IMG/VR virus record: IMGVR_UViG_3300021959_000459
Coordinates: 1 to 21,960 of that record
Direction: 5' to 3' (one strand)
DNA from: a virus
DNA: 21,960 nucleotides
Shown here one piece after another: positions 1-19,445 of the stretch. Numbering within the stretch: the first letter of the stretch is position 1; each line of letters starts with the position of its first letter. A program made the translations under genes and the position numbers. Under the pieces are notes generated by a model that saw only the letters and a list, made by a program, of their open reading frames with translations, made no database searches and had not been told where the DNA came from.

Positions 1-37
1 TGATAGTATTGTTGATAAAAAAATGAAAGAATTTTAA
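1..37 (+). CDS. 3' end of an upstream gene (partial)
   Basis: An open frame enters from the left edge. It can be read from position 2 as Asp-Ser-Ile-Val-Asp-Lys-Lys-Met-Lys-Glu-Phe and ends at a TAA at 35-37. The next gene starts seven bases later on the same strand, in line with the tight packing of the operon. Twelve residues are too few to name a family. Confidence 0.5.
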   Translation, partial: DSIVDKKMKEF

Positions 38-44
38 AAATAAA

Positions 45-353
45 ATGTATAACTTTGTATACAATATGAACCACTACTATACATCAGACGATGAACGAGT
101 AGCAAAGAGCGTCATTGATAGAAAGATACGAGAGGCAAAGGCTAACGCTCTAAGCGAACAATTTTGGGAGTATGGATATAATTTTTGTAGCGACTGCCTA
201 AAATCAAATGGAGTTATGTTAGATTGCTCTCATACTATTTCAGTAGATGAAGCGCAAAAGACCAGAAGAACGGAACTGGCTTGGGATGTTAAAAACATAA
301 AAGTAAGATGCAGAGATTGCCATATAGAACACGATAGCCGTAGTAAATTATGA
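45..353 (+). CDS. HNH-type zinc-binding nuclease-like protein
   Basis: This is a 102-residue protein with an HNH (His-Asn-His) layout in its second half. A CxxC pair lies at residues 48-51, a Cys-Ser-His at 61-63, an Asn at 84 in VKNIKV, and a CRDCH motif at 89-93. The four cysteines would bind structural zinc, and His63, Asn84 and His93 would form the metal-binding active site. Small phage HNH proteins often nick or cleave DNA, and some assist terminase during packaging; this one lies about 4 kb upstream of the terminase genes. A second in-frame ATG at 66 (residue 8) could be the real start. The end overlaps the next start by four bases. The fold is inferred from the motif only, so a non-nuclease zinc finger is possible. 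Confidence 0.65.
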   Translation: MYNFVYNMNHYYTSDDERVAKSVIDRKIREAKANALSEQFWEYGYNFCSDCLKSNGVMLDCSHTISVDEAQKTRRTELAWDVKNIKVRCRDCHIEHDSRSKL

Positions 354-529
354 AAGGGTTATACCAAGTTACTGCAATGAGAGCTAAGAAGATAATTAGC
401 TCAGAGGTCTATGGCAATATAGCTGAGAAAGATACTCTATTTAATCGCTTAATGAGTATCCATAAAATACCACATACAAGACGGCACGAATGGAAACTAC
501 AAGAAGTAAAACTAAATAAAGAAATATGA
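350..529 (+). CDS. small unknown protein, 59 residues
   Basis: A short gene fills the space between the HNH-like gene and the DUF1599 gene exactly. Its ATG at 350 overlaps the preceding TGA (ATGA), and its TGA at 527-529 overlaps the following ATG at 526 in the same way. This double overlap is the main reason to call it. The predicted product begins MKGLYQVTAMRAKK and is basic, with an RRHEWK segment near the end. It has no signal peptide or membrane segment. I do not recognise a family. A small DNA-binding or accessory protein of the modification cassette would fit the charge and context, but that is a guess. Confidence 0.65.
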   Translation: MKGLYQVTAMRAKKIISSEVYGNIAEKDTLFNRLMSIHKIPHTRRHEWKLQEVKLNKEI

Positions 530-828
530 CAAAAAAAGAACAGATGGCACACTTTGGGTATATAACCGAAGAGATGAGAAAGACATTGTTTAGCAAGGGA
601 GATGACTACGCAAATACAGATAGGCTATCAAACTTTAAATTAGCTGGCGCTATTGCTGGAGGAGATGCCAGAACAAATTGCTTAAACCTAATAGCTACCA
701 AAGTAGCAAGATTGGGAGTATTGATTAACTCAGAAAAAGAGCCTAATAATGAAAGTATAGAGGATAGTGTTTTAGATTTAGCAAACTATGCCGTACTTTT
801 GTCAATGATAATTAACGAAAATAAATAA
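526..828 (+). CDS. DUF1599 / nucleotide modification associated domain 1 protein
   Basis: This 100-residue protein resembles the DUF1599 family, also called nucleotide modification associated domain 1 (Nmad1), common in phages. Visible hallmarks are the KGDDYAN motif at residues 24-30, the following DRLSNFK at 32-38, a central helix with Cys52 and a KVARL segment near 59-63, and an acidic helix with SIEDSVLDLANYA near 77-89. The acidic ExxD/DxxNY pattern is like that of all-alpha MazG-type nucleotide-binding proteins. The family was named because its genes cluster with base-modification enzymes in phages. Its biochemical role is not settled; binding or processing of a modified nucleotide is the usual proposal. 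Here it sits upstream of a glycosyltransferase, a ParB-like protein and a TET/JBP-like oxygenase, which matches that context. Confidence 0.75.
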   Translation: MTKKEQMAHFGYITEEMRKTLFSKGDDYANTDRLSNFKLAGAIAGGDARTNCLNLIATKVARLGVLINSEKEPNNESIEDSVLDLANYAVLLSMIINENK

Positions 829-831
829 ATT

Positions 832-1092
832 ATGAAAAAAACAGAAAAAGTATTCGCAGATGGATTTATGTTCAAAATGAATCCAAATTCACCAGAATGG
901 GTAGTAGGTACCTTAAGCCTAAAAGCAGATGAGGCAATAGCCTTTATTCAAAAGAACGCAGAAAAAGGCTGGGTAAATTTGAAAGTTAATGTAGGAAAGA
1001 GTGGAAAGCCATATGTTGAGCTTGATACTTGGAAGCCAGACGCTAAAAAAGAAGTAGTTGAGGAATTTAATTCCGAAGCCTTACCCTTTTGA
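832..1092 (+). CDS. small protein with SSB-like acidic C-terminal tail
   Basis: This is an 86-residue protein of unknown family. The body has alternating beta-like segments (VVGTLSL, GWVNLKVNVG, PYVELDTWKP) that could form a small beta barrel or sheet, around one helix at about 32-44. The end is EEFNSEALPF: an acidic stretch closing with Pro-Phe, like the C-terminal peptide with which single-stranded DNA-binding proteins recruit partners. That raises the possibility of a small ssDNA-binding protein or a mimic of the SSB tail, but no OB fold can be proved by eye. The gene starts three bases after the previous stop, and its TGA overlaps the next gene's TTG start (TTGA). Confidence 0.7.
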   Translation: MKKTEKVFADGFMFKMNPNSPEWVVGTLSLKADEAIAFIQKNAEKGWVNLKVNVGKSGKPYVELDTWKPDAKKEVVEEFNSEALPF

Positions 1093-2441
1093 AATTAGAG
1101 GAGATATATTTTGACAAGAGCATTAGGGATTATGCTTTAAAGCTGACGAAAAACAAATCGGATGCTGAGGAGTTAATCTCTATTGCTTTTGAAATATGTC
1201 TATACAAAGATGATATAGCTAACCTAAAGGGTTTCTTTGCGATGGTTATGAGAAACCAATGGCTAAAAATGTCTAAAGAAAGGGACATTTATTTTGACGA
1301 TGAAACAACAGAATATCCAGAAGCTGAGGAGGTTCTGGATAAAATGAATCACTACTATGCAAACATACTCCGAGCAATCAGCAACGGAGAAAATCTAACG
1401 CAAATACATAAGGGAGCATCTATAGGCTACAGAACTTTAAGGGATGACTATGCAAGAGCGAAAAAAGAATTTAAGATAATGTACGAAAATAAAATAAAGA
1501 TTGCCGTAATAATTAGGGGTATAAACGGAGTAAGTTACCACAGACTATTAATGCCATTTGCTAAGATGCACAGAGATTATGGTATAGAGGTAGTTGTTTT
1601 GCTCAACAAGGATGATGAGTTTTTTAATAACCTTGAGGGAGTAACACACGTTGTTTACAATAGGAATATATCTGGGCTTATGCAGCCAGAGGAAACGTAT
1701 TTAAAACTCAGAGCAAAAGGAATTAAAGTTATTTGCGATATAGATGATTACTGGGTATTGCCTCAGAGCCATCCAATGAGGGTATATTATAAGAAAAGCC
1801 ATTTAGATAAGTGTATAGTAACAAACTTGAAATTAGCTGACCAGATATGGACAACTACCTCAATACTGGCAGATAAGATAAGACCATACAACAAAAATAT
1901 TGAGATAATAAAGAACGCTATTGACCCAACGGAGAAGCAATATGCATACGATGATTTGAGTATTAACTTTGATACGTTCTTTTATTCTGGTGGAAGTACA
2001 CACATAAAAGATTTAAAGTTATTAGGCAATGCCTTTGATGATGAAAAGCTATTAGTAAAAGCCCCAAGGCTGCCTAAAAGAATGTTAGCGATAAAACAAC
2101 AGATAAGCAATATTCAAGACTATGCAGAGGATTATAAACATTGTGGTATATGTGTAATTCCTTTGGCTGATAATACCTTTAATAGCTGCAAATCTGAACT
2201 AAAAATGATTGAGGCTGGACACTTTGCAAAACCAGTAATGGTATCGGCAGTAGAGCCTTATAATTTGCTCTCAACAAATAAAAATAGTCTAAAAGTATAT
2301 AATAATGAATGGGTGTCTGCAATACAGAAGATAAAAGGCAACCATCAAATGCAAGTAGATTTAGGTTTAAAGCTAAAAGAGGACATTACTTTAAAGTATG
2401 ATATAGCAAAGGAAAACGAAAAACGTTTACAAGCTTTATGA
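1089..2441 (+). CDS. sigma-factor-like domain fused to a GT4-type glycosyltransferase
   Basis: This 450-residue protein has two unrelated parts. Residues 8-65 resemble sigma-70 region 2 of ECF factors (YALKLTKNKSDAEELISIAF, then GFFAMVMRNQWLK). Residues 90-127 look like the region 4 helix-turn-helix (ISNGENLTQIHKGAS, then TLRDDYARAKKEF). Residues 136-450 form a GT-B glycosyltransferase: IAVIIRGINGVSYHRL at the start, CDIDDYW at 216-222, IWTTTSILADKI at 253-264, IIKNAIDP at 273-280, and KSELKMIEAGHFAKPV at 368-383, matching the donor-binding segment of GT4 enzymes. TTG is the first usable start, because an in-frame TAA lies at 1068-1070 and no ATG comes before residue 52; it overlaps the previous stop. 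An in-frame ATG at 1479 could start a glycosyltransferase-only protein. The likely acceptor is a modified DNA base or a virion protein; both are inference. The glycosyltransferase call is firmer than the sigma call. Confidence 0.8.
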   Translation: MKLEEIYFDKSIRDYALKLTKNKSDAEELISIAFEICLYKDDIANLKGFFAMVMRNQWLKMSKERDIYFDDETTEYPEAEEVLDKMNHYYANILRAISNGENLTQIHKGASIGYRTLRDDYARAKKEFKIMYENKIKIAVIIRGINGVSYHRLLMPFAKMHRDYGIEVVVLLNKDDEFFNNLEGVTHVVYNRNISGLMQPEETYLKLRAKGIKVICDIDDYWVLPQSHPMRVYYKKSHLDKCIVTNLKLADQIWTTTSILADKIRPYNKNIEIIKNAIDPTEKQYAYDDLSINFDTFFYSGGSTHIKDLKLLGNAFDDEKLLVKAPRLPKRMLAIKQQISNIQDYAEDYKHCGICVIPLADNTFNSCKSELKMIEAGHFAKPVMVSAVEPYNLLSTNKNSLKVYNNEWVSAIQKIKGNHQMQVDLGLKLKEDITLKYDIAKENEKRLQAL

Positions 2442-2623
2442 CAAAAGAATTAGAAGCAAGAATAAGAGCCATTTATAATATGAAAGGGGGACAATTAGAC
2501 CCTAAATTCTTTAATGAGTTTATTGAGCTATGCCAAAAGAACTTTAATTATAGACCAGATGTAAGTTGTGGAAAGTGTATCTACAAGCACGTTGTTAAAT
2601 TATATGATAAATTTTTAAAATGA
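2438..2623 (+). CDS. small CxxC protein, 61 residues, unknown function
   Basis: This short protein has a helical first half (KELEARIRAIYNMKGG), a FFNEFIELCQKNF helix, and a SCGKCIYKHVVKLYDKF segment with Cys residues spaced CGKC near residue 45. The pair could bind a metal together with Cys33, or simply stabilise the fold. The ATG overlaps the previous TGA and the gene's TGA overlaps the next ATG (both ATGA), so it belongs to the same translationally coupled operon. I do not recognise a characterised family. Placement between the glycosyltransferase and the ParB-like gene makes an accessory role in the same pathway possible but unproven. Confidence 0.7.
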   Translation: MTKELEARIRAIYNMKGGQLDPKFFNEFIELCQKNFNYRPDVSCGKCIYKHVVKLYDKFLK

Positions 2624-3189
2624 TAGTAAAAGTAAAAGACCTAAAGCCAAATCCTAATAACCCAAGATATATTAGAGATGAAAAATTTGAGAAATTAAAG
2701 AAGTCAATACAAGACTTTCCAGAGATGTTAAAACTTCGCCCAGTAGTTGTAGATGATGATATGGTAGTATTGGGTGGTAATATGCGATTAAAAGCGCTAA
2801 CAGAGCTTGGAATAGACGAAGTAGAGGCAATAAAAGCAAAAGCCCTAACAGAGAAGCAGAAAGCCGAGTTTATAATTAAGGATAATGTAGGCTTCGGAGA
2901 TTGGGACTGGGACTTACTCGCTAATGACTGGGATAGTCAGCAGCTTAATGATTGGGGTCTTGATGTTTGGCAAATTGATGATTTATCGAACGAAGGCGAA
3001 TACGCTGGCGCAGACCCTGAATTAGAGCTTGACAAATTTTTAAATTCTGAATTAAAAAGAATGTTTTTTGTTTATGATAATCAAACTTTTGAAAGAGTAG
3101 TAAATTGGCTTAACTCTATTCAAAGCAAATACGATTTACAAAGCCATAGCGACGCAATTTTAAAATTAATGGAAAATGAACACATTTGA
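2620..3189 (+). CDS. ParB-like N-terminal-domain protein
   Basis: This 189-residue protein has a ParB/sulfiredoxin-type domain in its first half. It contains KVKDLKPNPNNPR at residues 4-16, a helix EKFEKLKKSIQDF at 21-33, the strand RPVVVDDDMVVLGGN at 40-54, and MRLKALTELG at 55-64, which matches the GxxRLxAL core of the family. The segment KDNVGFGDWDWDLLANDW at 87-104 is typical of phage ParB-like proteins found near DNA methylases and other modification genes. The C-terminal part, from about 130, is a separate helical region. Such proteins are not plasmid partition factors; they may act as CTP/ATP-dependent enzymes or DNA-targeting partners of modification enzymes. The gene overlaps the oxygenase gene by 14 bases, which argues for joint action. 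Confidence 0.8.
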   Translation: MIVKVKDLKPNPNNPRYIRDEKFEKLKKSIQDFPEMLKLRPVVVDDDMVVLGGNMRLKALTELGIDEVEAIKAKALTEKQKAEFIIKDNVGFGDWDWDLLANDWDSQQLNDWGLDVWQIDDLSNEGEYAGADPELELDKFLNSELKRMFFVYDNQTFERVVNWLNSIQSKYDLQSHSDAILKLMENEHI

Positions 3190-4054
3190 GCTAAATAAAA
3201 TAAAATGCGCGGATAGCTTATTAAAGCAAACTCCAAAAAAAGAAGACTATTCTTTAATTATAAATCAAGATACTTTATTTACAAAAAATGGAGCAAATGT
3301 AGGGCTTTATATTAAAATTAGAAAAGAGCAGTCTAATCTAATTAGAGCCGCAAGCTTAAATACAAAATATATAAAAGGTAGTAGAACGCGAGGAATACAG
3401 ACTCAGTCAAGCATATTCGGAAGCTTACCAAGAATAGCGAGAAGAAATGACTATTGCAGATTTTCATCTCAAACAAAAAGCGAAAAATCAAACACAAGCA
3501 TACTATTTTCCTTTTTGCCGCATCTTACAGAAATTTATAAAAAGTATTTGCCTAAGCAATATGATAGAGATATTGAAATAATAAACGAAAATGTTATTGA
3601 CGACTATATTTTGCAAAAAAAAGCTCCATTTACAACAGCAAACATAAATGTAAATCACGCTATAAAATATCACAGAGACACTGGCAATTTTAAAGGCAAT
3701 TTGTCAAATGTTCTAATTTTAAGAGATGGAATAGAAGGAGGTCAGCTTGTTTTCCCTGAATATGGATTTGCTCTTGCTCAAGAGGATAGCTACTTAGCTA
3801 TATTTGACGGACAAAGCGAAATTCACGGAGTAATGCCAATAATTAAAACAAAAGAAAACCCATACAGAGCGTCAATCGTTTACTATACTTTAGAAAATAT
3901 GAAGCATTGCTATCCTTTTAAAATGGAATTAGAAAGGCTTAAAAATGTAGCTTCTGTCAGAGCAAATAGAAGAGCAGAAAATCAAGACCCTACGAAAATT
4001 AAAAAAGAGAGAAATAGCAGCAAAAAGGCTGAAAATATAAGCCCTAAAAAATAA
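3176..4054 (+). CDS. TET/JBP-type 2-oxoglutarate/Fe(II) DNA dioxygenase
   Basis: This 292-residue protein carries a double-stranded beta-helix oxygenase core. The iron ligands are visible as HRD (His166, Asp168) in AIKYHRDTGNF and His217 in DGQSEIHGVMP; Arg231 in PYRASIVYY would hold 2-oxoglutarate. The intervening GGQLVFPEYGFAL at 188-200 and an upstream SIFGSLPRIARRNDYCRFSS at 79-98 are the pattern of the TET/JBP family, which hydroxylates the 5-methyl group of thymine (JBP) or 5-methylcytosine (TET) in DNA. A lysine-rich tail from about 272 could bind DNA. The gene follows the ParB-like gene with overlap and ends three bases before the small terminase. No cytosine methyltransferase is present in the window, so the substrate base is open. 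Family assignment is confident; the reaction is inferred. Confidence 0.85.
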   Translation: MNTFELNKIKCADSLLKQTPKKEDYSLIINQDTLFTKNGANVGLYIKIRKEQSNLIRAASLNTKYIKGSRTRGIQTQSSIFGSLPRIARRNDYCRFSSQTKSEKSNTSILFSFLPHLTEIYKKYLPKQYDRDIEIINENVIDDYILQKKAPFTTANINVNHAIKYHRDTGNFKGNLSNVLILRDGIEGGQLVFPEYGFALAQEDSYLAIFDGQSEIHGVMPIIKTKENPYRASIVYYTLENMKHCYPFKMELERLKNVASVRANRRAENQDPTKIKKERNSSKKAENISPKK

Positions 4055-4057
4055 AAT

Positions 4058-4438
4058 ATGAGTACAAAAAATGACATACAAAAGGCTGCAATGATAGAAG
4101 CTTTGGAAAAGTCTTTAGGGATAGTTACCTCTGCTTGTAAGTCAGTAGGAATAAGTAGGAATACTCATTACACTTGGCTAAAGCAAGACGATATATATAA
4201 AGAAGCAGTAGAGGACATAGAGGATATAGCTTTAGATTTTGCCGAGAGCCAACTGCACAAGCAGATTAAGGATGGTAATACTACTGGAACTATATTTTAC
4301 CTAAAGACAAAAGGCAAGAAGCGAGGGTATATAGAGCGTACAGAGGTGCAGCAAGAGACCACCTACAAGAGCCTTGATATTAACATAATAGATACTGGCA
4401 TACCTTTAGCCTCTAATGAGAAAGATATAGTTGATTAG
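4058..4438 (+). CDS. terS: terminase small subunit
   Basis: This 126-residue protein starts with a helix-turn-helix: AMIEALEKSLGIVTSACKSV is followed by GISRNTHYTWLKQDDIYKEAV (about residues 11-50), a layout shared by small terminase subunits that recognise phage DNA for packaging. The next part, DIALDFAESQLHKQIKDGNTTGTIFYLKTKGKKRGY (about 56-91), is the helical oligomerisation and linker region typical of this group. It lies directly upstream of the large subunit and overlaps it by eight bases, the usual arrangement. The C-terminus is less conserved and probably contacts the large subunit. Confidence 0.88.
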   Translation: MSTKNDIQKAAMIEALEKSLGIVTSACKSVGISRNTHYTWLKQDDIYKEAVEDIEDIALDFAESQLHKQIKDGNTTGTIFYLKTKGKKRGYIERTEVQQETTYKSLDINIIDTGIPLASNEKDIVD

Positions 4439-5588
4439 CACCTCTGCCCTATATCGTCAAAATTATTTATCTGCTGCCGACATAGTAGTTAATCAAGGAG
4501 GTACGTCCTCTGGTAAGACCTATGCTATTTTGCAAGTATTGTTTGCTAAGGCGATTTCAGAAACTTGTATTATTACTATTGTAGGTCAAGATATACCTAA
4601 TTTAAAGGTGGGTGCGTTAAGAGATGCAATAGACATCCATAACGGAGATGAGGCGATAAAACAACAAGTAACATTTTATAATAGGTCAGATAGGGTCTTT
4701 AGTTTCCTAAACGGCTCTATAATGGAGTTTAATAGCTATGATAATGACCAAGACGCTAAGAGTGGTAAGAGGGACTATTTGTTTGTAAACGAGGCTAATG
4801 GTATACCCTACAATATATTTGAGCAATTAAGCCTCAGAACAAGAAAGCAAGTCTATATAGATTATAACCCAGATACAAGCTTTTGGGTACACGAGAAAGT
4901 CATACCCTTGCCAAGTGCTGAGCTGATAATCTCAGACCACAGACATAACCCTTTTTTAAGCGATAAGATTAGAGAGAAAATAGAAGCTCTAAAAAATAAA
5001 GATTTAGACTTGTGGAAAGTATATGCCAGAGGAATTACTGGGCGAATAGAGGGCTTAGTATTCAAAAAATGGTATGTATTAAATGAGAGCTTTGAGGATA
5101 AGAATTTAATAGGGTATGGAATAGATTTTGGGTTTACCAATGACCCATCGACATTAATAGAGGTTAGGATGCAAGATGGAGAATTGTACGTTAAGGAGTT
5201 GATATACGAAACTGGATTAACTAACCAAGATATAAGCAATAGAATGGAGGCTTTAGGAGTAGGCAAAAACGCTTTGATAGTAGCTGACTCGTCAGAGCCT
5301 AAAAGTATAGAAGAGTTAAGGCGATTAAGATGGACAATAGATGGAGTAAAAAAGGGAGCAGACTCGGTTATGTTTGGAATTAATCTTTTGAAAGGTTACG
5401 CAATTAACGTACATTCGTCGAGTAAGAATTTAATAAAAGAATTAGAGCAGTATAAATGGAAGGTAAATAAAAACGGAGATAGCTTAAATGTGCCAATTGA
5501 CGATTATAACCACGCTATTGATGCTCTTAGATATATAATAATGCATAAATTTAGTAAGAAAGGATATGGACAATACAGAATTATATAA
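4431..5588 (+). CDS. terL: terminase large subunit
   Basis: This 385-residue protein is the ATP-driven DNA packaging motor and headful or site-specific nuclease. The Walker A motif GGTSSGKT is at residues 23-30, the Walker B strand DYLFVNEAN is near 114-122 with the catalytic Glu, and a coupling segment follows. The RNase H-like nuclease domain shows its acidic residues in GYGIDFGFTNDPST (about 218-231), LIVADSSEPKSIEEL (about 282-296) and DDYNHAIDALRYI (about 357-369). Length and motifs fit the PBSX-type large terminases. The start is TTG: an in-frame TAG sits immediately before it at 4428-4430, and no ATG occurs before the Walker A motif. The end overlaps the tail assembly chaperone gene by 23 bases. 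Confidence 0.93.
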   Translation: MISTSALYRQNYLSAADIVVNQGGTSSGKTYAILQVLFAKAISETCIITIVGQDIPNLKVGALRDAIDIHNGDEAIKQQVTFYNRSDRVFSFLNGSIMEFNSYDNDQDAKSGKRDYLFVNEANGIPYNIFEQLSLRTRKQVYIDYNPDTSFWVHEKVIPLPSAELIISDHRHNPFLSDKIREKIEALKNKDLDLWKVYARGITGRIEGLVFKKWYVLNESFEDKNLIGYGIDFGFTNDPSTLIEVRMQDGELYVKELIYETGLTNQDISNRMEALGVGKNALIVADSSEPKSIEELRRLRWTIDGVKKGADSVMFGINLLKGYAINVHSSSKNLIKELEQYKWKVNKNGDSLNVPIDDYNHAIDALRYIIMHKFSKKGYGQYRII

Positions 5589-6162
5589 AATAACGATAAA
5601 ACAATATCAAGAAATATGCGACATTGACGAATCTTTGTCAATCGTTGAGCAGAACATCTATGCAGTAGCAGCCCTAAAGGATATAACCTACGAGGAGGCT
5701 TCTAAGATACAGATGTCTGAATTTAAAAAGCTGGTGGATATAGTAGCCGATTTTAATGTTAAACTCTTAGAAAAATTAAAAATAAATAATAAGATTACAT
5801 TAGGCGATAATAAATACTACATTGAGCATAGACCAGACAAGTTAACAAGTGGTCAGCTTTTAGATATTATTAATGTTAGGAGTAGTAATGCTGGTCAAGC
5901 AGTTAAGGCTATGCACTTAATTCTCGCAGCTATGAGCAGACCAAAGGGTAAAAAGTATGGAGAGGATAATTTAACCCTAATAGAAAGAGCTGAGCTATTT
6001 AAAGGTGTTAATTTAAAAGATGTTTGGAATGTCTTTGTTTTTTTTTGGAATCTCTGGAACGATTACTTGGACGATTCAGAGGACTCTTTAGACAAGTGGA
6101 TGTCGGACACGATAAAGATAACGAATCGGATTTTGGACAAAGATGGGGACTCTTTAGCGTAA
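5566..6162 (+). CDS. tail assembly chaperone, short (0-frame) product
   Basis: This 198-residue protein is the likely counterpart of lambda gpG. Its features are a helical body with KLVDIVADFNVKLLEKL (about 55-71), a GDNKYYIEHRPDKLTSGQLLDI segment (about 80-101), and an aromatic stretch VWNVFVFFWNLWNDYL (153-168). Such chaperones coat the tape measure protein and help the tail tube polymerise. The main support is a perfect slippery heptamer inside the gene at residues 159-160 and a -1-frame extension that runs 125 bases past this stop, the arrangement of gpG/gpGT genes in long-tailed phages. It lies directly behind the large terminase, an unusual place. The family call rests on the frameshift architecture more than on sequence identity. 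Confidence 0.72.
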   Translation: MDNTELYKITIKQYQEICDIDESLSIVEQNIYAVAALKDITYEEASKIQMSEFKKLVDIVADFNVKLLEKLKINNKITLGDNKYYIEHRPDKLTSGQLLDIINVRSSNAGQAVKAMHLILAAMSRPKGKKYGEDNLTLIERAELFKGVNLKDVWNVFVFFWNLWNDYLDDSEDSLDKWMSDTIKITNRILDKDGDSLA

Positions 6163-6287
6163 TAGAATCAATGGCAAATTTACATAATATAAGTATAAAT
6201 GAAACTACTGAATTGGGAGCTATTGAGTTTCTAAATTGGTGGGCATATATGGTAGAGAAACAAGAATATGAACGCAGCTTTAAATAA
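5566..6287 (+). CDS. tail assembly chaperone, -1 frameshift product (240 residues)
   Basis: If ribosomes slip back one base at 6039-6045, the first 160 residues are joined to 80 residues read in the -1 frame, ending at the TAA at 6285-6287. The added part ends with a conserved-looking helical region, RWGLFSVIESMANL followed by ELGAIEFLNWWAYMVEKQEY, like the T portion of gpGT proteins that contacts the tape measure. The -1 frame has an ATG at 6024 but no sensible separate gene: it would start with a leucine/arginine-rich shadow of the aromatic stretch. The extension overlaps the next start by 20 bases. The ratio of products should be low, as in other tail chaperones. Confidence 0.7.
6039..6045 (+). 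promoter_or_regulatory. -1 ribosomal frameshift slippery site (T TTT TTT)
   Basis: A run of nine T bases (6038-6046) places the canonical heptamer T TTT TTT in the correct frame (GTT TTT TTT TGG). Five bases downstream, TCTCTG at 6051-6056 can pair with CAGAGG at 6077-6082, including one G-U pair, giving a modest stimulatory stem at a suitable distance. The heptamer and frame are seen directly; the stem is a weak hand-drawn prediction. A homopolymer this long could also allow RNA polymerase slippage with the same outcome. Confidence 0.7.
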
Positions 6288-6864
6288 ATTATATGGCAAC
6301 TTATTGACGTACTGGCAAACGGTAGTTGATGACTTAGTTAAAGAATTGACAATAGCTTACGCTGGGTCAAGTGGCAATACAAGACAAGCCATCGGAAAGG
6401 ACAACGCTAAGCCAGTAAGCCTAACTGCCTCTGGATTTAAGGTCACTATAACTATGCCAGATTATTACCTATTTTTAGATGAAGGGGTAAGTGGAGCAAG
6501 GTATAACAAAAATATCAGTAGATTTAAATACGATAAATTAATGCCTCCTATATCAGCGATAAGAAAGTTTATGCAGAACAGAGATATTACTCAACCTAAA
6601 CAAATCAATAGAAAAAATAGACCTAAAAACCAACCAATAAAAAGAAAGCAGCGACCAAAGAATACAAGAGCTGGTAGAAAGAGAGATAAGGAAGACATAC
6701 TTAACGGTATAGCCTTTGCGATAGCTTACAGTATTTGGGAGAGGGGTTTAAAGAAAACAGAATTTTATAGCAAAGTCATAAATGATAAAAAGTTACTTGA
6801 GCTTGAAGCCTCGTTAATTCAGCAGTATAGTGCCTATGTTTTAGAAACAATTAAGGTAGATTAA
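6268..6864 (+). CDS. HK97 gp10-like / tail-completion protein
   Basis: This 198-residue protein has the layout of a neck or tail-completion protein. A first helical segment (NLLTYWQTVVDDLVKELTIAY) is followed by beta strands (ASGFKVTITMPDYYLFLDEGVSG, about 55-76), then PPISAIRKFMQNR (about 93-105). A very basic linker (about 110-140, rich in Lys, Arg and Asn) leads to NGIAFAIAYSIWERGLKKTEFYSKVIND (about 147-174). The YxxFLDEGVSG...PPxxAIxxFM...RGLKxTxFYS pattern is what such proteins show in related Bacteroidota phages. The protein probably joins the tail to the head. The basic linker is longer than usual and may touch DNA in the channel. It overlaps the frameshift extension of the chaperone by 20 bases. 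Confidence 0.65.
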   Translation: MNAALNKLYGNLLTYWQTVVDDLVKELTIAYAGSSGNTRQAIGKDNAKPVSLTASGFKVTITMPDYYLFLDEGVSGARYNKNISRFKYDKLMPPISAIRKFMQNRDITQPKQINRKNRPKNQPIKRKQRPKNTRAGRKRDKEDILNGIAFAIAYSIWERGLKKTEFYSKVINDKKLLELEASLIQQYSAYVLETIKVD

Positions 6865-6882
6865 AAAAAAATAAAAAAAAGT

Positions 6883-6912
6883 TTTGTATTCTAATATTTT
6901 GTATTAATTTTG
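6883..6912 (+). promoter_or_regulatory. Bacteroidota-type promoter
   Basis: A TTTG at 6883-6886 and TAATTTTG at 6905-6912 match the -33 and -7 elements (TTTG and TAnnTTTG) of the main Bacteroidota sigma factor, separated by 18 bases. Transcription would start near 6917-6922, leaving a leader of about 20 bases before the ATG at 6941. The 76-base gap after a long gene-dense operon is consistent with a new transcription unit. Confidence 0.6.
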
Positions 6913-6940
6913 TGTACATAATATAAAAGCAATAACAAAA

Positions 6941-7183
6941 ATGAACAACACAATTACAAACATTATTAGCAACTTAAAAAAATCAAACACTAATCAAGAT
7001 TTTATTATTTATAATGATAAAATAAAAATGGAATGGAGCATTAACTTTGAATTTTTAAATAATTCTATATTAATGATATGCAATGGTTCCACACTTGATT
7101 CCGTATGGTTTAATAATTTAAAAGAATTAAACTACTATTTAAAAAATAGTTTTTTAAATGACAATAACTTTACTATAAAATAA
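6941..7183 (+). CDS. small AT-rich unknown protein (moron-like)
   Basis: This 80-residue protein is rich in Asn, Lys, Ile and Phe. It shows KMEWSINFEFLNNSILMICNG in its middle and ends with KNSFLNDNNFTIK. I see no signal peptide, membrane anchor or known motif. It has its own promoter match and is followed by an intrinsic terminator, so it looks like an autonomously expressed accessory gene inserted between packaging/neck and tail genes, as phage morons are. Its base composition is visibly more AT-rich than the flanking structural genes. Such genes often affect host fitness or exclude other phages, but nothing in the sequence shows which. Confidence 0.6.
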   Translation: MNNTITNIISNLKKSNTNQDFIIYNDKIKMEWSINFEFLNNSILMICNGSTLDSVWFNNLKELNYYLKNSFLNDNNFTIK

Positions 7184-7192
7184 ACAACACAA

Positions 7193-7220
7193 ACCCTTCA
7201 TCATATGGTGAGGGGTTTTT
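7193..7220 (+). terminator. intrinsic terminator after the first small gene
   Basis: ACCCTTCA (7193-7200) pairs with TGAGGGGT (7209-7216), with one G-U pair, around the loop TCATATGG, and is followed by a run of T to 7220. It lies ten bases after the stop of the preceding gene. Confidence 0.8.
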
Positions 7221-7234
7221 AACACAATAACAAA

Positions 7235-7417
7235 ATGACAAACACAATTAAACAACCAAAAGAAATGAAAAATCACAAATTAACTTTAGCGCAATATTCA
7301 AAAGCAATAGAACTTGGATATTACGAACCGATAAAATGTGTATCTGTTTTTAAAAAGATAGTAAAGCATTACAAAGTTTGCGGAAGAACTGAAACACTTT
7401 TAATAGACTTAAAATAA
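7235..7417 (+). CDS. second small unknown protein (moron-like)
   Basis: This 60-residue basic protein contains KNHKLTLAQYSKAIELGYYEP followed by KCVSVFKKIVKHYKVCGRTE. The two cysteines (residues 35 and 49) are the only notable residues. I do not recognise a family. Its start region (7225-7250) is nearly identical to that of the preceding small gene (6930-6956), and it lies between two intrinsic terminators. No separate promoter is visible, so it probably depends on readthrough of the first terminator or on an unseen start. Small size lowers certainty, but the duplicated start region and the following terminator support a real gene. Confidence 0.6.
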   Translation: MTNTIKQPKEMKNHKLTLAQYSKAIELGYYEPIKCVSVFKKIVKHYKVCGRTETLLIDLK

Positions 7418-7448
7418 AAATAAAAGCCTCACGGTGTTAGTACATAGC

Positions 7449-7474
7449 AGCCCTCAGAAATGAGGGCTTTTTTT
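7449..7474 (+). terminator. strong intrinsic terminator after the second small gene
   Basis: AGCCCTCA (7449-7456) and TGAGGGCT (7461-7468) form a perfect eight-base-pair stem closed by a GAAA tetraloop, followed by seven T. It ends the small-gene insert and isolates it from the tail operon. Confidence 0.92.
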
Positions 7475-7492
7475 ACGTTAAATTTTAAACGG

Positions 7493-7500
7493 TACTTTTG
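7493..7500 (+). promoter_or_regulatory. candidate promoter -7 element for the tail operon
   Basis: TACTTTTG fits the Bacteroidota TAnnTTTG element and lies between a strong terminator and a large structural gene, so a promoter is needed here. No clear TTTG lies 17-20 bases upstream. The start of transcription would be only a few bases before the ATG at 7514, making a very short leader. The GTATATATAAATAGATGG overlapping the start codon recurs upstream of 13855. Confidence 0.45.
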
Positions 7501-7517
7501 TATATATAAATAGATGG
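7500..7517 (+). repeat. start-site motif GTATATATAARTAGATGG, copy 1
   Basis: This 18-base motif covers the last bases before, and the ATG of, the gene at 7514. The second copy (13841-13858) differs at one base and has the same position relative to the ATG of the protease gene. Both follow a break between gene blocks. Confidence 0.6.
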
Positions 7518-8773
7518 CAGTTACAATTCAAGACCAACCGACAACCAATATACCAGAGCCAAGCTTTGCTCCTATAGAGTATTTAGTTAGTAGTGACAAT
7601 ACTACTCAGAGTGGATTTAAGGTAATAGCAAGTCTATTTACTGACCCAACTGGAGATAATACAAAGATTGCTACTTTGCAGTTGAATACTATTCCCTCAG
7701 CTACGCAAGTTGTAACGGATATTCAAAACATCATACAATCGTTTGTAACGAGTAATTATTCTGTTTTGGCTGGAGATACTATTGGAGTTTCTCAAAGTGC
7801 CTTAAAAGACTTTAAAATAGCTTTTCAAGAGTATTATAGTGGAGCGTTACAAGGTACGGCAGTAAGTGGCAATACTTTTACAAGTTGGAATTCATCTCCA
7901 AAGTATATTGAATGGGCTGATTTATCTGAGGGTTATCGCCAATACGAAAAATGGAAAGTAGAGGATTCTGTCGCTAATAATGATGGTGAATTTTTAAATG
8001 GGTTTGAGCAGCAAGACGAGTGGTTTAATTTTACAAGTAGTAATAATTTTGTAAGGGTTATGCCTACTCAGAAATATCAAGCCTCTTGGATTATGAAGCC
8101 AAACAATTCAAGCACATACCAAATCCATCTAAAGACCCTTGATTCTACATTTGCTGCATTAACTACTTCTACTTTATCTATACCTAACACAGAGAGCTTA
8201 TATACTCTTGATATAGGATTAGCTGAATTAGCTTCTCATAGCTGGAGTGTTGCACCAAATACAACAGACTCTAAGTATTATGCTCTTAGAATTTTAGACG
8301 TTACTAATGACTTTTGGGCTACAAATACAATAATGTTTGAAATTGATAGGTGCGAAAATACCTATACAGATTACGAGCTACATTGGTTAAATAGAAAGGG
8401 TGGATATGATAGCTATACTTTTACTGGCAAATCTAACCAGACCACAAATATTAAAAAGAACTTTGCTAAGTATAATACTCGCACAATAGGAGCAAGTAGC
8501 ATAACGCATAATACATACGCGCAACGCAAGAGGGCTTTCCATACTGGTTTAAGCGACTCTTATAACCTTAATAGTAGATTGCTAAAAGATTTTGAAGTTG
8601 AGGGCTTAGAGGACTTATTTTCATCTCCAGAGGTTTACTGGAAAAACGATGCTAATTTTGTTTCGGTTAATGTAACTGGCAGTACTTTTGAACACGCTAA
8701 GAGCGAGAACGGACAAGTATACTCTATGCAACTAACAATGGAGATAGATAATAGCGATAAACGACAATGGTAA
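7514..8773 (+). CDS. predicted tail/baseplate structural protein
   Basis: This 419-residue protein is beta-rich and opens a tail operon. It has an N-terminal region with FAPIEYLVSSDNTTQSGFKVIASLF (about 18-42) and a later segment ENTYTDYELHWLNRKGGYDSYTFTGKS (about 281-307). The pattern LxWLNRxGGxDxxTFxG is one I associate with tail-tip proteins of Bacteroidota siphophages. The C-terminal part (about 365-400, SRLLKDFEVEGLEDLFSSPEVYW) fits the same group. It has no catalytic motif, signal peptide or membrane segment. It overlaps the next large gene by seven bases and precedes the tape measure gene, so a distal-tail or baseplate role is the best inference; direct evidence from a characterised relative is lacking. 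Confidence 0.65.
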   Translation: MAVTIQDQPTTNIPEPSFAPIEYLVSSDNTTQSGFKVIASLFTDPTGDNTKIATLQLNTIPSATQVVTDIQNIIQSFVTSNYSVLAGDTIGVSQSALKDFKIAFQEYYSGALQGTAVSGNTFTSWNSSPKYIEWADLSEGYRQYEKWKVEDSVANNDGEFLNGFEQQDEWFNFTSSNNFVRVMPTQKYQASWIMKPNNSSTYQIHLKTLDSTFAALTTSTLSIPNTESLYTLDIGLAELASHSWSVAPNTTDSKYYALRILDVTNDFWATNTIMFEIDRCENTYTDYELHWLNRKGGYDSYTFTGKSNQTTNIKKNFAKYNTRTIGASSITHNTYAQRKRAFHTGLSDSYNLNSRLLKDFEVEGLEDLFSSPEVYWKNDANFVSVNVTGSTFEHAKSENGQVYSMQLTMEIDNSDKRQW

Positions 8774-16531: not shown

Positions 16532-16894
16532 ATGGACATAATAGAGAAAGATACTACAAATTATATTTATTGCAATATCTCAAATGAGGTAAATAATGCT
16601 TACTATACTATGACCATTGAAGCCTCAGAATACGAGGTTAATGTAACTTTAGCAGCCCCAGATGGGGTAAACGATAGGTATGTTGCTTTTGAGCTAATAG
16701 AGGGTGCGCAAGACCTCCCTAACGCAACAATAGACCTACCGAACAACGGAGATTATCCGTATAAGATAATAAATGCCACTACATTAGGAGGAACAGAGGG
16801 GATAGAAATTCATAGAGGTATATTAAGATTGAAACAACCCAAAGAAATTGTATATTCGTACACAGACGAACAAAGTACTATAATTTATGAATAA
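16532..16894 (+). CDS. small unknown structural-region protein, 120 residues
   Basis: This beta-rich acidic protein contains NEVNNAYYTMTIEASEYEVNVTLAAPDGVNDRY, then a LPNNGDYPYKIINATTLG turn region and a closing GILRLKQPKEIVYSYTDEQ. The layout resembles an immunoglobulin-like or tail-associated beta sandwich, but I recognise no named family. It starts 12 bases after a strong terminator and overlaps the portal gene by eight bases, so its expression is coupled to the portal and is probably low. A head-tail joining or minor virion component is possible from context only. No promoter is visible between the terminator and the start. Confidence 0.65.
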   Translation: MDIIEKDTTNYIYCNISNEVNNAYYTMTIEASEYEVNVTLAAPDGVNDRYVAFELIEGAQDLPNATIDLPNNGDYPYKIINATTLGGTEGIEIHRGILRLKQPKEIVYSYTDEQSTIIYE

Positions 16895-19445
16895 ATTTCC
16901 AATTATAACGGAATTTGCCTCAGCAGAAATCCCAGTTTTTTTAGAAAAAAAGAACAAAAATATCGTTTGGTTCGGAGCTGATAACCTTTATCCCTTTGAA
17001 CTTATAGACCTATATAACGATAGTAGCACACATAACGCTATTATTAACGGAAAAGTAGGCTATATTGTAGGCAATGGCTTACATTCTGATGACTTAGAAA
17101 CAAAGAAATGGCTATCTCAAGCGAATATAGATGAGGATTGGACTTCATTATTAAAGCGTTTAACGTTAGATTATGAGTTATTTAATGGTTATGCCATTGA
17201 AGTTATTAAAACAAGAGTAGGCAACCAGTATCATCACTTAGATTTTGCTAACATTAGAGTAGGTTTAGATGGTTCTATACAGTATGCACACGATTGGATT
17301 ACTGACAAGGGGACAAAAAACTCTAAACCAGACATTCAGTATTTAGAGAGATATAACCCAAGAAACCCAGACCAAAAAAGAGGGGTGATTTATCACGTTG
17401 ATTATAGACCTAACCTTAAATATTACCCTTTGCCAGTATATGTTGGCTCACTTGCTGAGATAAGAACAGATGTGCAAATAGGAGATTATTGGTTAAATGA
17501 GGTTGAAAATGGATTTGTAGGAGGGACACTAATTCAGCATAACAACGGAGTTCCAGAAACAAAAGAAGAGGCTAAGCAATTTGAGGAAGCTTTTAAAGAG
17601 AAATTTGGCAAGGCAACTGGAACTAAAATAGTACATTTATTCAGCCCATCAAAAGAGAATGGTAGCGAAATAACCAATCTTAATGGTAATGACTTACACG
17701 AAAGATATGTTAATATGAGCCAACGAGTAAAGGAGGCTATATTTATAGGGCATCGAGTTACTAACCCAATCTTATTTGGAGTAAAAGAAGAGGGACAATT
17801 AGGGGCAAGGAATGAGCTTGATTTGGCTTACGAGATATTTACAAACACTTATGTAGCTGAGCGTCAAAATACGCTGATGAGAACAGTTAAAAAATTAGCT
17901 TTCTTTGAGATACAAAAAACAGATATAGAATTAATACCACTTAAACCTATTGATACCGTAGATTTAACCTCAGATATAATCTTAGCAAACCTTAGCAGAG
18001 AGGAAATAAGAACTATGATAGGCGACCAAACTGGGATTCAGCTTGAAGAGGCTATTGAAGTATCTAATATCCCAGTAGAACCAATACAAACAGATAATCC
18101 TAACGAAGTCGTAGTAGAAAGCATAGATGAAGAGAAAGAGCAAAAGGAATCCTCTTATAATGGTGCTCAAATAGCTTCTGCTTTGTCAATCGTAGAGCAA
18201 GTAAAATCTGGCATTCTTTCAGTTAGTCAAGGGAAAGCTGCTTTAATGGAGTTTTTAAGACTATCAGAAGAGGTATCTCTGAAACTATTAAAAGGAGATG
18301 ACGAGTTTTTAACGCAAATATTTGAAAAAAAAATACAAGACGGAAAGCCTTTATTTGATACAATAGAGGAAGCAGAGAGTGTAGCTCAGCAAATAGGTTG
18401 CGAGGGTTATCACGAACACGAAATAGATGGAGAAATATGGTATATGCCTTGCTCTACTCATTCTGAGATTAATGACAAGAATTTAGAGGGGTTTAATCGT
18501 ATAACAAAATTTGATACCTATAACGATTACCCTAAAGCAGCAAGTAGAAACGCACAGACTGCTCTAAATTGGGCAGAAAAGAACGGATGGGGTTCTTGCT
18601 TAGAGGCAACTGGAAAAAAAAGAGCCTCGATGTTAGCTAATGGTGATAGTTTGAGCCGAGATACTATCGCTCGTATGGCAGCCTTTGAAAGACACAGACA
18701 AAACTCTAACAAAAAGTTAGGCGATGGATGTGGGCGTTTAATGTGGTTAGCTTGGGGAGGTGACGAGGGTATCGCTTGGGCACAAAGAAAACTAAAGCAA
18801 ATAGACTCAGAAAAGATGTCTGCTTGTTTTTCAGAGGATGAAGATATAAGCCATTTATTTGACAATATAGGAGTATCAAAAGACGATTACGAAATAGTAG
18901 ACAATTTAGACATACACTTTAGTTCTGATGGTAGCCCTATAGAATTTGCTACTGCTGAGCAAGGTATCGTAAGAAATGTACTGAAACTTATATTTGCAAA
19001 CCCATTAATAAAAGCTTCTGGTATTGCTGAGGCTTTAGGTTTAGACTTTGACCAGTTATTAGGGTCTATAGGCATATTAACAACGTCTAATTTAATAGAG
19101 ATTGAGGGTAGCGATATTAGTTTAACAAATGTAGGAGAAAAGGTAGCCAAGTCAATTGATTTACCTAAAACTGAGGTTAAATATGAGTACCAATTAAGAG
19201 CCGATGCTCGTCCATTAAAAGAGGGTGGAAGCTCAAGAGATTTTTGTCGCAAAATGATGTCTAAAAACAAGCTATATACCAAAAAAGAAATAGACGTTTT
19301 AAGAAATGATATGAAGGCAAGTGGATTAGCAGATGTTACAGACGTTTGGTTAGCAAGAGGAGGCTGGTATAGAAAGCCAAATACAACTACAAGCGTACCA
19401 TTTTGTCGTCATATATGGAAACAAGTAATAGTTAGAAAGAAATGA
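16887..19445 (+). CDS. portal protein with multidomain C-terminal fusion
   Basis: This 852-residue protein is about twice the usual portal length. Residues 1-400 match portals: IVWFGADNLYPFELIDLYNDS (26-46), NGKVGYIVGNG (54-64), LDYELFNGYAIEVI (94-107), and RVTNPILFGVKEEGQLGARNEL (290-311). Several modules follow. SYNGAQIASALSIVEQVKSG (423-442) is a helical domain often found at portal ends. FDTIEEAESVAQQIGCEGYH with MPCSTH (490-525) is a small possibly metal-binding module. YPKAASRNAQTALNWAEKNG through LMWLAWGGDEGIAWAQ (548-632) is a helical domain. A winged-helix-like segment lies at 694-756. The end, RADARPLKEGGSSRDFCRKM through WLARGGWYRKPN and FCRHIWKQVIV (771-849), resembles the tail of Mu F-like head morphogenesis proteins. 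The gene overlaps both neighbours. The portal call is strong; the fused modules are by pattern recall. Confidence 0.85.
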   Translation: MNKFPIITEFASAEIPVFLEKKNKNIVWFGADNLYPFELIDLYNDSSTHNAIINGKVGYIVGNGLHSDDLETKKWLSQANIDEDWTSLLKRLTLDYELFNGYAIEVIKTRVGNQYHHLDFANIRVGLDGSIQYAHDWITDKGTKNSKPDIQYLERYNPRNPDQKRGVIYHVDYRPNLKYYPLPVYVGSLAEIRTDVQIGDYWLNEVENGFVGGTLIQHNNGVPETKEEAKQFEEAFKEKFGKATGTKIVHLFSPSKENGSEITNLNGNDLHERYVNMSQRVKEAIFIGHRVTNPILFGVKEEGQLGARNELDLAYEIFTNTYVAERQNTLMRTVKKLAFFEIQKTDIELIPLKPIDTVDLTSDIILANLSREEIRTMIGDQTGIQLEEAIEVSNIPVEPIQTDNPNEVVVESIDEEKEQKESSYNGAQIASALSIVEQVKSGILSVSQGKAALMEFLRLSEEVSLKLLKGDDEFLTQIFEKKIQDGKPLFDTIEEAESVAQQIGCEGYHEHEIDGEIWYMPCSTHSEINDKNLEGFNRITKFDTYNDYPKAASRNAQTALNWAEKNGWGSCLEATGKKRASMLANGDSLSRDTIARMAAFERHRQNSNKKLGDGCGRLMWLAWGGDEGIAWAQRKLKQIDSEKMSACFSEDEDISHLFDNIGVSKDDYEIVDNLDIHFSSDGSPIEFATAEQGIVRNVLKLIFANPLIKASGIAEALGLDFDQLLGSIGILTTSNLIEIEGSDISLTNVGEKVAKSIDLPKTEVKYEYQLRADARPLKEGGSSRDFCRKMMSKNKLYTKKEIDVLRNDMKASGLADVTDVWLARGGWYRKPNTTTSVPFCRHIWKQVIVRKK

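Follow-up and report, generated by a model that had tools for sequence, protein, structure and literature searches.

A probable exchangeable ParB-anchored DNA-modification slot, now loaded with a TET/JBP oxygenase, before the terminase genes of a marine phage lineage

The DNA considered here (the window) is a 21,960-base fragment, the IMG/VR virus record IMGVR_UViG_3300021959_000459, probably from a small marine phage of Bacteroidota; the nearest TerLs from isolates are those of Bacteroidota phages, at ~39% identity. Directly before its terminase genes lie a ParB-like gene and a gene for a predicted TET/JBP oxygenase. These genes probably occupy an exchangeable, ParB-anchored DNA-modification slot, now TET-loaded, in which thymine oxidation is the likeliest chemistry and which would act against restriction. 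An earlier note had taken positions 526 to 4054 as a single modification cassette. However, the moving unit is much smaller, spanning about 2974-4056 and consisting of the ParB tail and TET. Because sister phages carry different DNA-modifying enzymes at this site, it is read as an exchangeable slot for disguising DNA rather than as a fixed pathway of TET and a neighboring glycosyltransferase (GT).

Three sets of relatives were fetched: by TET, by the neighboring fusion of a sigma-like region to a GT (sigma-GT), and by TerL. The TerL lineage comprises 76 non-identical contigs, all of them metagenomic fragments. Its layout consists of an HNH gene, Nmad1, an 86-amino-acid (aa) protein, sigma-GT, and a 61-aa protein, followed by the slot and then by terS-terL; the slot nearly always begins with ParB. 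The window DNA is 81-90% identical to that of its siblings L084, L087, and L108 up to position 2973, which lies inside parB, and again from 4057, at the start of terS. Homology to two other siblings, L104 and L106, ends at 2935 and restarts at 4088. At the DNA level, the 1.08 kb between the slot borders is unrelated to the siblings, and its G+C content is 31.0% in the swapped cassette versus 37.6% in the ParB body. On these alignments, the slot and its borders, from the interior of parB to terS, can be regarded as very probable. The arrangement is real, since L002, a separately deposited near-identical contig, covers 514-7593 and crosses both borders; a chimeric assembly is thus ruled out. The features concerned are as follows.

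45-353: HNH endonuclease-like protein (E=7e-5), conserved in its upstream position throughout the lineage
526-828, plus strand: DUF1599/Nmad1-like protein of 100 aa (PF07659); lineage core, outside the moving cassette
832-1092, plus strand: 86-aa protein, lineage core, adjoining sigma-GT across the lineage; no family match
1089-2441, plus strand: fusion of an N-terminal sigma-like region (about residues 1-135) with a putative glycosyltransferase of GT-B type (about residues 142-448); lineage core
2438-2623, plus strand: 61-aa protein, lineage core, conserved across the lineage; left neighbor of the slot
2620-3189, plus strand: whole ParB gene (PHROG ParB-like, E=4e-25)
2620-2973, plus strand: conserved ParB body, codons 1-118, the anchor common to all cargo types
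2974-3189, plus strand: tail at the C-terminus of ParB, characteristic of TET cargo by comparison of tail identity with siblings and distant phages
3176-4054, plus strand: TET/JBP 2-oxoglutarate (2OG)-Fe(II) dioxygenase, 292 aa (PF12851, invariant residues, fold)
2974-4056, plus strand: swapped cassette, ParB tail plus TET (breaks in sibling homology, drop in G+C)
4058-4438, plus strand: terminase small subunit (terS), right border of the slot
4431-5588, plus strand: terminase large subunit (TerL), basis of the lineage tree

By Pfam and PHROGs, sister slots hold one of the following: the TET type of the window; another type of TET, 25-29% identical, with either TAGT or FkbM; TAGT alone; Mom (PF25680, E=5e-54); a C5-methyltransferase; a fusion of ABC ATPase and GNAT; N6/N4 methyltransferases in fusion with ParB, with or without S-adenosylmethionine (SAM) decarboxylase (AdoMetDC); a PAPS-reductase/DUF3440 protein accompanied by another ParB; or nothing besides ParB. 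A TerL tree of 62 tips requires at least 35 changes of cargo (shuffled mean 39.8) and at least 10 changes for the presence of TET. These counts, like the pairwise identities given below, indicate scale and do not constitute a strict test, since tips and pairs are non-independent and TerL may recombine. What seems to be new is that modifiers of unrelated chemistry alternate in a single fixed slot of one backbone, next to a related ParB body whose tails are specific to the cargo.

The body of the window ParB is 88-91% identical at the protein level to those of siblings with other cargo, but the tail is only 10-11% identical. Compared with more distant phages that share its TET type, the window ParB is 45-65% identical in the body and mostly 43-68% in the tail; tails from a second TET branch (L051-L074) are 25-33% identical to that of the window. 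Across the lineage, tail identity is 46% for same-cargo pairs versus 8% for different-cargo pairs, while body identity is equal (65 versus 64%). Every one of the 75 TET loci that extend far enough has ParB directly upstream, and 28 of 31 distant loci have it within 1.6 kb of TET. The earlier proposal of a TET/JBP DNA-base oxygenase that pairs with a ParB-like protein and probably shields the phage DNA is supported. The box-II (P-motif) Arg of GGNMR in the ParB body is kept in all aligned rows. Within the slot, ParB-methyltransferase fusions place the enzyme at the position of the tail, and by analogy suggest that unfused ParB and cargo may also act together. ParB-methyltransferase fusions in phages, and nucleoside triphosphate (NTP) binding by other members of the ParB fold, have been described (PMC12704722); ParB-like proteins beside phage DNA modifiers have been called proteins of unknown function (PMC12783734). 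Tentatively, ParB could be a docking partner of the cargo enzyme. ParB-alone slots (for example L085, L097, L121, and L145) encode a ParB of ~145 aa with a conserved CEKCGKEI motif at its C-terminus, which may bind metal or serve for docking.

The oxygenase matches Tet_JBP (PF12851) with 64.4 bits (E=9e-18), well above the curated cutoff of 34.9. The motifs reported previously are present: HRD at residues 166-168, the distal His at 217, Arg at 231, and GGQLVFPEYG, the GGxLVFPEYG-type strand, at 188-197. H166, D168, H217, and R231, which form the HxD...H iron triad and the 2OG-binding Arg, are invariant both in an alignment of 47 relatives and in 54 homologues. An AlphaFold2 model (confidence score pLDDT 86.7) has as its top solved folds human TET2, Naegleria NgTET1, CMD1, and Coprinopsis CcTet, with Z scores of 16.4-19.2; TET2 and NgTET1 score ~19 and CcTet 16.5, above the best AlkBH/FTO fold (14.4) and the protein hydroxylase PHD2 (13.4). 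TET2 is also the first match when PDB sequences are searched by profile (E=1e-6). The profile and the fold ranking therefore identify a TET/JBP enzyme and not a protein hydroxylase, the assignment that the earlier note had named as contrary to its own, and the protein is predicted with high confidence to be a DNA oxygenase. The annotation of phrog_6059, "queuine tRNA-ribosyltransferase", is likewise ruled out by Pfam and fold. This label or "DpdA-like" is attached to phrog_6059 and to several RefSeq actinophage gp2 TET/JBP proteins, apparently as a propagated misannotation.

No C5-methyltransferase was found in the five isolate genomes with related TETs or in 18 lineage records, which are environmental fragments (the window itself does not extend to the early region of its phage), and the enzyme is missing from 22 of the 27 TET records outside the lineage. 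Eight residues after the catalytic Arg, where TET2 has His1904 and NgTET1 His297, 51 of 54 sequences of the window's TET family carry Leu or Met. The closest isolate homologue of the window TET is found in Rhodococcus phage Tonitrus, whose TET set is assigned by its authors to thymidine hypermodification (PMC11955845), and gp2 of Mycobacterium phage Prince is annotated as a thymidine hydroxylase. Thymine is thus the better guess, given the missing C5-methyltransferase, the Leu/Met at the TET2 His1904 position, and the Tonitrus setting, and conversion of thymine to 5-hydroxymethyluracil (5hmU) is, with modest confidence, the likelier chemistry; cytosine, mentioned previously as a target of some phage TETs, is not favored.

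A mechanism can be proposed in which the ParB body, an NTP-binding, clamp-like fold, would load onto phage DNA while its tail would hold or regulate the enzyme encoded beside it. The TET would then hydroxylate the methyl groups of pyrimidines once the DNA has been replicated and before it is packaged, with 5hmU from thymine as the most likely product, so that host restriction enzymes would fail. The sigma-GT fusion and Nmad1 would be neighbors of use to the phage with any cargo. More speculatively still, ParB might be a universal tool-holder, an NTP-driven clamp whose exchangeable tail docks any modifier in the slot (TET, Mom, TAGT, methyltransferase, or perhaps an aminopropyl-transferring enzyme), in which case one recombination inside parB would change the DNA chemistry.

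Several points weigh against this reading. ParB stands without an adjacent enzyme in about one third of the lineage members, and must therefore act alone in these phages or use an enzyme encoded elsewhere. Since the ParB tail travels with the enzyme, the matching of tail and cargo may be mere linkage. The contigs are fragments, some possibly from the same populations, and the number of cargo changes is relative to the tree of one gene, TerL, which may recombine. As to the base, the argument from Leu in place of His rests on the roles of TET2 His1904 and NgTET1 His297, which we take to be cytosine contacts; a C5-methyltransferase is present in 5 of the 27 TET records; and a more distant TET in Nonlabens phage P12024L lies close to an annotated DNA methyltransferase. 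These last points bear on an alternative in which the TET acts on 5-methylcytosine (5mC), made by a host or a distant phage methyltransferase, to give 5-hydroxymethylcytosine or a further oxidized cytosine. Biochemically studied phage TETs act on 5mC, and the closest solved folds to the window enzyme are 5mC oxidizers, which together with the five methyltransferase-bearing records speak for this substrate. A secondary statement in PMC11404850 likewise has phage TETs acting on 5mC. However, the empty searches of the isolate genomes and lineage records, the Leu/Met position, and the neighbors of the Tonitrus TET all point away from 5mC, and this alternative is considered unlikely.

A different objection is that the slot might be a general accessory hotspot whose TET does not protect the phage genome at all, serving instead, for example, as an anti-defense activity against host DNA or RNA. 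The cargo is indeed very diverse, and FkbM and the ABC-GNAT fusion are not proven DNA modifiers. However, most of the cargo families are known or predicted to modify DNA, and the placement with a ParB partner immediately ahead of terS/terL is repeated in different groups of phages, making a role outside genome protection very improbable.

Some of the alternative cargo is of interest in itself. AdoMetDC occurs in two arrangements (L082:11532-13059, L109, L110, and the L100/L101 slot) next to an N6/N4-type methyltransferase that is either fused to ParB or separate; L100 also has a GNAT. In Croceibacter phage P2559S, gp66-gp68 (L219:6667-8921) lie near the terminase; gp66 is 45% identical to the ParB-methyltransferase of L082 and is followed by AdoMetDC. 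These pairs suggest that an aminopropyl group may be transferred to DNA from decarboxylated SAM. In L208 (1411-3245), L210, and L211, the slot directly ahead of terS contains a PAPS-reductase/DUF3440 protein along with another ParB-like protein, presumably an IbrA/IbrB-like pair. An ABC-ATPase fused to a GNAT acetyltransferase (phrog_11143) is the cargo in L107 (12029-13099) and L134 (6551-7639), and is possibly another modifier.

The six open reading frames (ORFs) at 526-4054 lie on one strand and lead directly into terS and terL, with junctions that are, in order, a 3-nt gap and overlaps of 4, 4, 4, and 14 nt. A tightly coupled run had been noted before, as four genes; the same-strand, nearly all overlapping organization is confirmed, but the number of ORFs is six. 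The GT portion of the sigma-GT protein (residues 142-448) belongs to phrog_7162 (E=3.5e-45). The structure model of sigma-GT is poor (pLDDT 63), with weak matches to GT-B enzymes and PhyR sigma-like domains. The sigma-like N-terminus by itself gives a very weak match to PF04542 (E=0.05), but its profile matches standalone sigma-like proteins (hhalign 90%, E=1.4e-6), which lie upstream of or near ParB in 31 TET-bearing phages outside the lineage. The fusion, which 54 distinct homologues share, is thus a peculiarity of this lineage that derives from a gene commonly present ahead of the terminase. Among the profiles that the earlier note proposed, only Tet_JBP scores above its cutoff: ParB_N (PF02195) reaches 21.6 bits against a cutoff of 26.3 and DUF1599 (PF07659) 20.6 bits (E=6e-4) against 25, and the GT, taken as GT4-type in the earlier note, has no Pfam GT match.

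The earlier note had placed the GT, the sigma-like domain, and Nmad1 in the TET pathway, such that the TET hydroxylates a base, the neighboring sigma-GT glycosylates it, and Nmad1 and ParB assist. Gene proximity and tight packing favor this scheme, the sigma-like domain could bring the GT to DNA, and TET-GT pairs are an established pattern, as in Mycobacterium phage Acadian. However, sigma-GT is present in all 48 lineage contigs with a readable upstream region, whatever the cargo or with none, although only 8 of these carry any TET, and phrog_7162 is absent from all 27 larger TET-bearing records outside the lineage, occurring there only in 2 small contigs that were picked for having it. DUF1599 behaves similarly: all 6 lineage records examined for it, which differ in cargo, contain it, and none of 17 other TET records does. 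Being present regardless of cargo and absent from other TET records, GT and Nmad1 are genes of the lineage and not partners of TET. The window GT gives no match to the TAGT profile (PF20691), but the GTs in the siblings' slots do, and in sister phages TET is accompanied within the slot by a TAGT or FkbM even though sigma-GT is already there. A hydroxymethylase of the thymidylate-synthase type (PF00303), which could supply the GT with a hydroxyl when TET is missing, was found in none of 18 lineage records, and such a supply was rejected. On co-occurrence across the separate sets of loci, the joint TET-GT pathway was rejected as the principal account and is very unlikely, and a role of sigma-GT as a DNA-targeted GT finds no positive support.

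The 61-aa protein was considered as a homologue of a 22-member family encoded upstream in unrelated TET phages and was rejected (hhalign only 10%). Among isolated phages, no DNA-level relatives of window positions 1-6000 were found, and an Rfam scan of the window gave no matches. A search of genome contigs for prophage forms of the GT lineage yielded only a 29% match in Serratia, without the sigma part. The window also encodes, at 16887-19445, an 852-aa portal protein with a long C-terminal extension that matches phrog_2859, a different PHROG from that of the portal part.

Members of the lineage have related ParB bodies and a related backbone, carry at least 8 kinds of cargo, and differ in their tails according to cargo; they constitute a natural series in which the hypothesis of ParB as adaptor or clamp becomes testable. 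Exchange at the slot shows the speed at which a phage can switch its DNA chemistry. It also advises caution: neighboring core genes, such as those for GT and Nmad1, should not be taken as pathway partners.

Modules of ParB with TET, and of TET with GT, were reportedly known from the work of Iyer et al. in 2013. ParB-TET before terminase recurs across phage groups, in actinophages and in cyanophages. Mycobacterium phage Acadian (gp1-gp6) has ParB-TET-TAGT-PIG-L-TerS-TerL, sharing ParB-TET before terminase with the window and adding TAGT and PIG-L; Microbacterium phage Margaery (gp1-gp4) has ParB-TET-(small ORF)-terminase, the same minimal set as the window; and Prince (gp1-gp5) has ParB then TET before terminase, with additional genes annotated as DNA glycosylase and adenylate kinase. 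However, these actinophage modules are only ~30% identical to that of the window and lie on an unrelated phage backbone. Prochlorococcus cyanophage MED4-184, with ParB-FkbM-TET-small ORF-TerL, has the order and families of siblings L087, L104, L106, and L119; the window differs in having no FkbM and a TET of the other subtype (28% identity). Tonitrus has ParB and TET as in the window and, in addition, aGPT-Pplase2 and a 5hmU kinase-like gene (PMC11955845); no kinase or aGPT-Pplase gene is among the annotated genes of the 22-kb window fragment. TAGT (PF20691) systems combine TET with a sugar-transferring enzyme, as do sister phages; the window GT, in contrast, falls in phrog_7162, has a sigma-like domain attached, and occurs independently of TET. 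Finally, Mu-like cryoconite phages have a variable methyltransferase island in their packaging module, near ParB and terminase genes (PMC7468147). Although only methyltransferases and an acetyltransferase are reported for this island, without the ParB body/tail pattern or the alternation of TET, Mom, TAGT, and AdoMetDC, it resembles the slot described here in that genes for DNA modification are exchanged in the vicinity of ParB and terminase.

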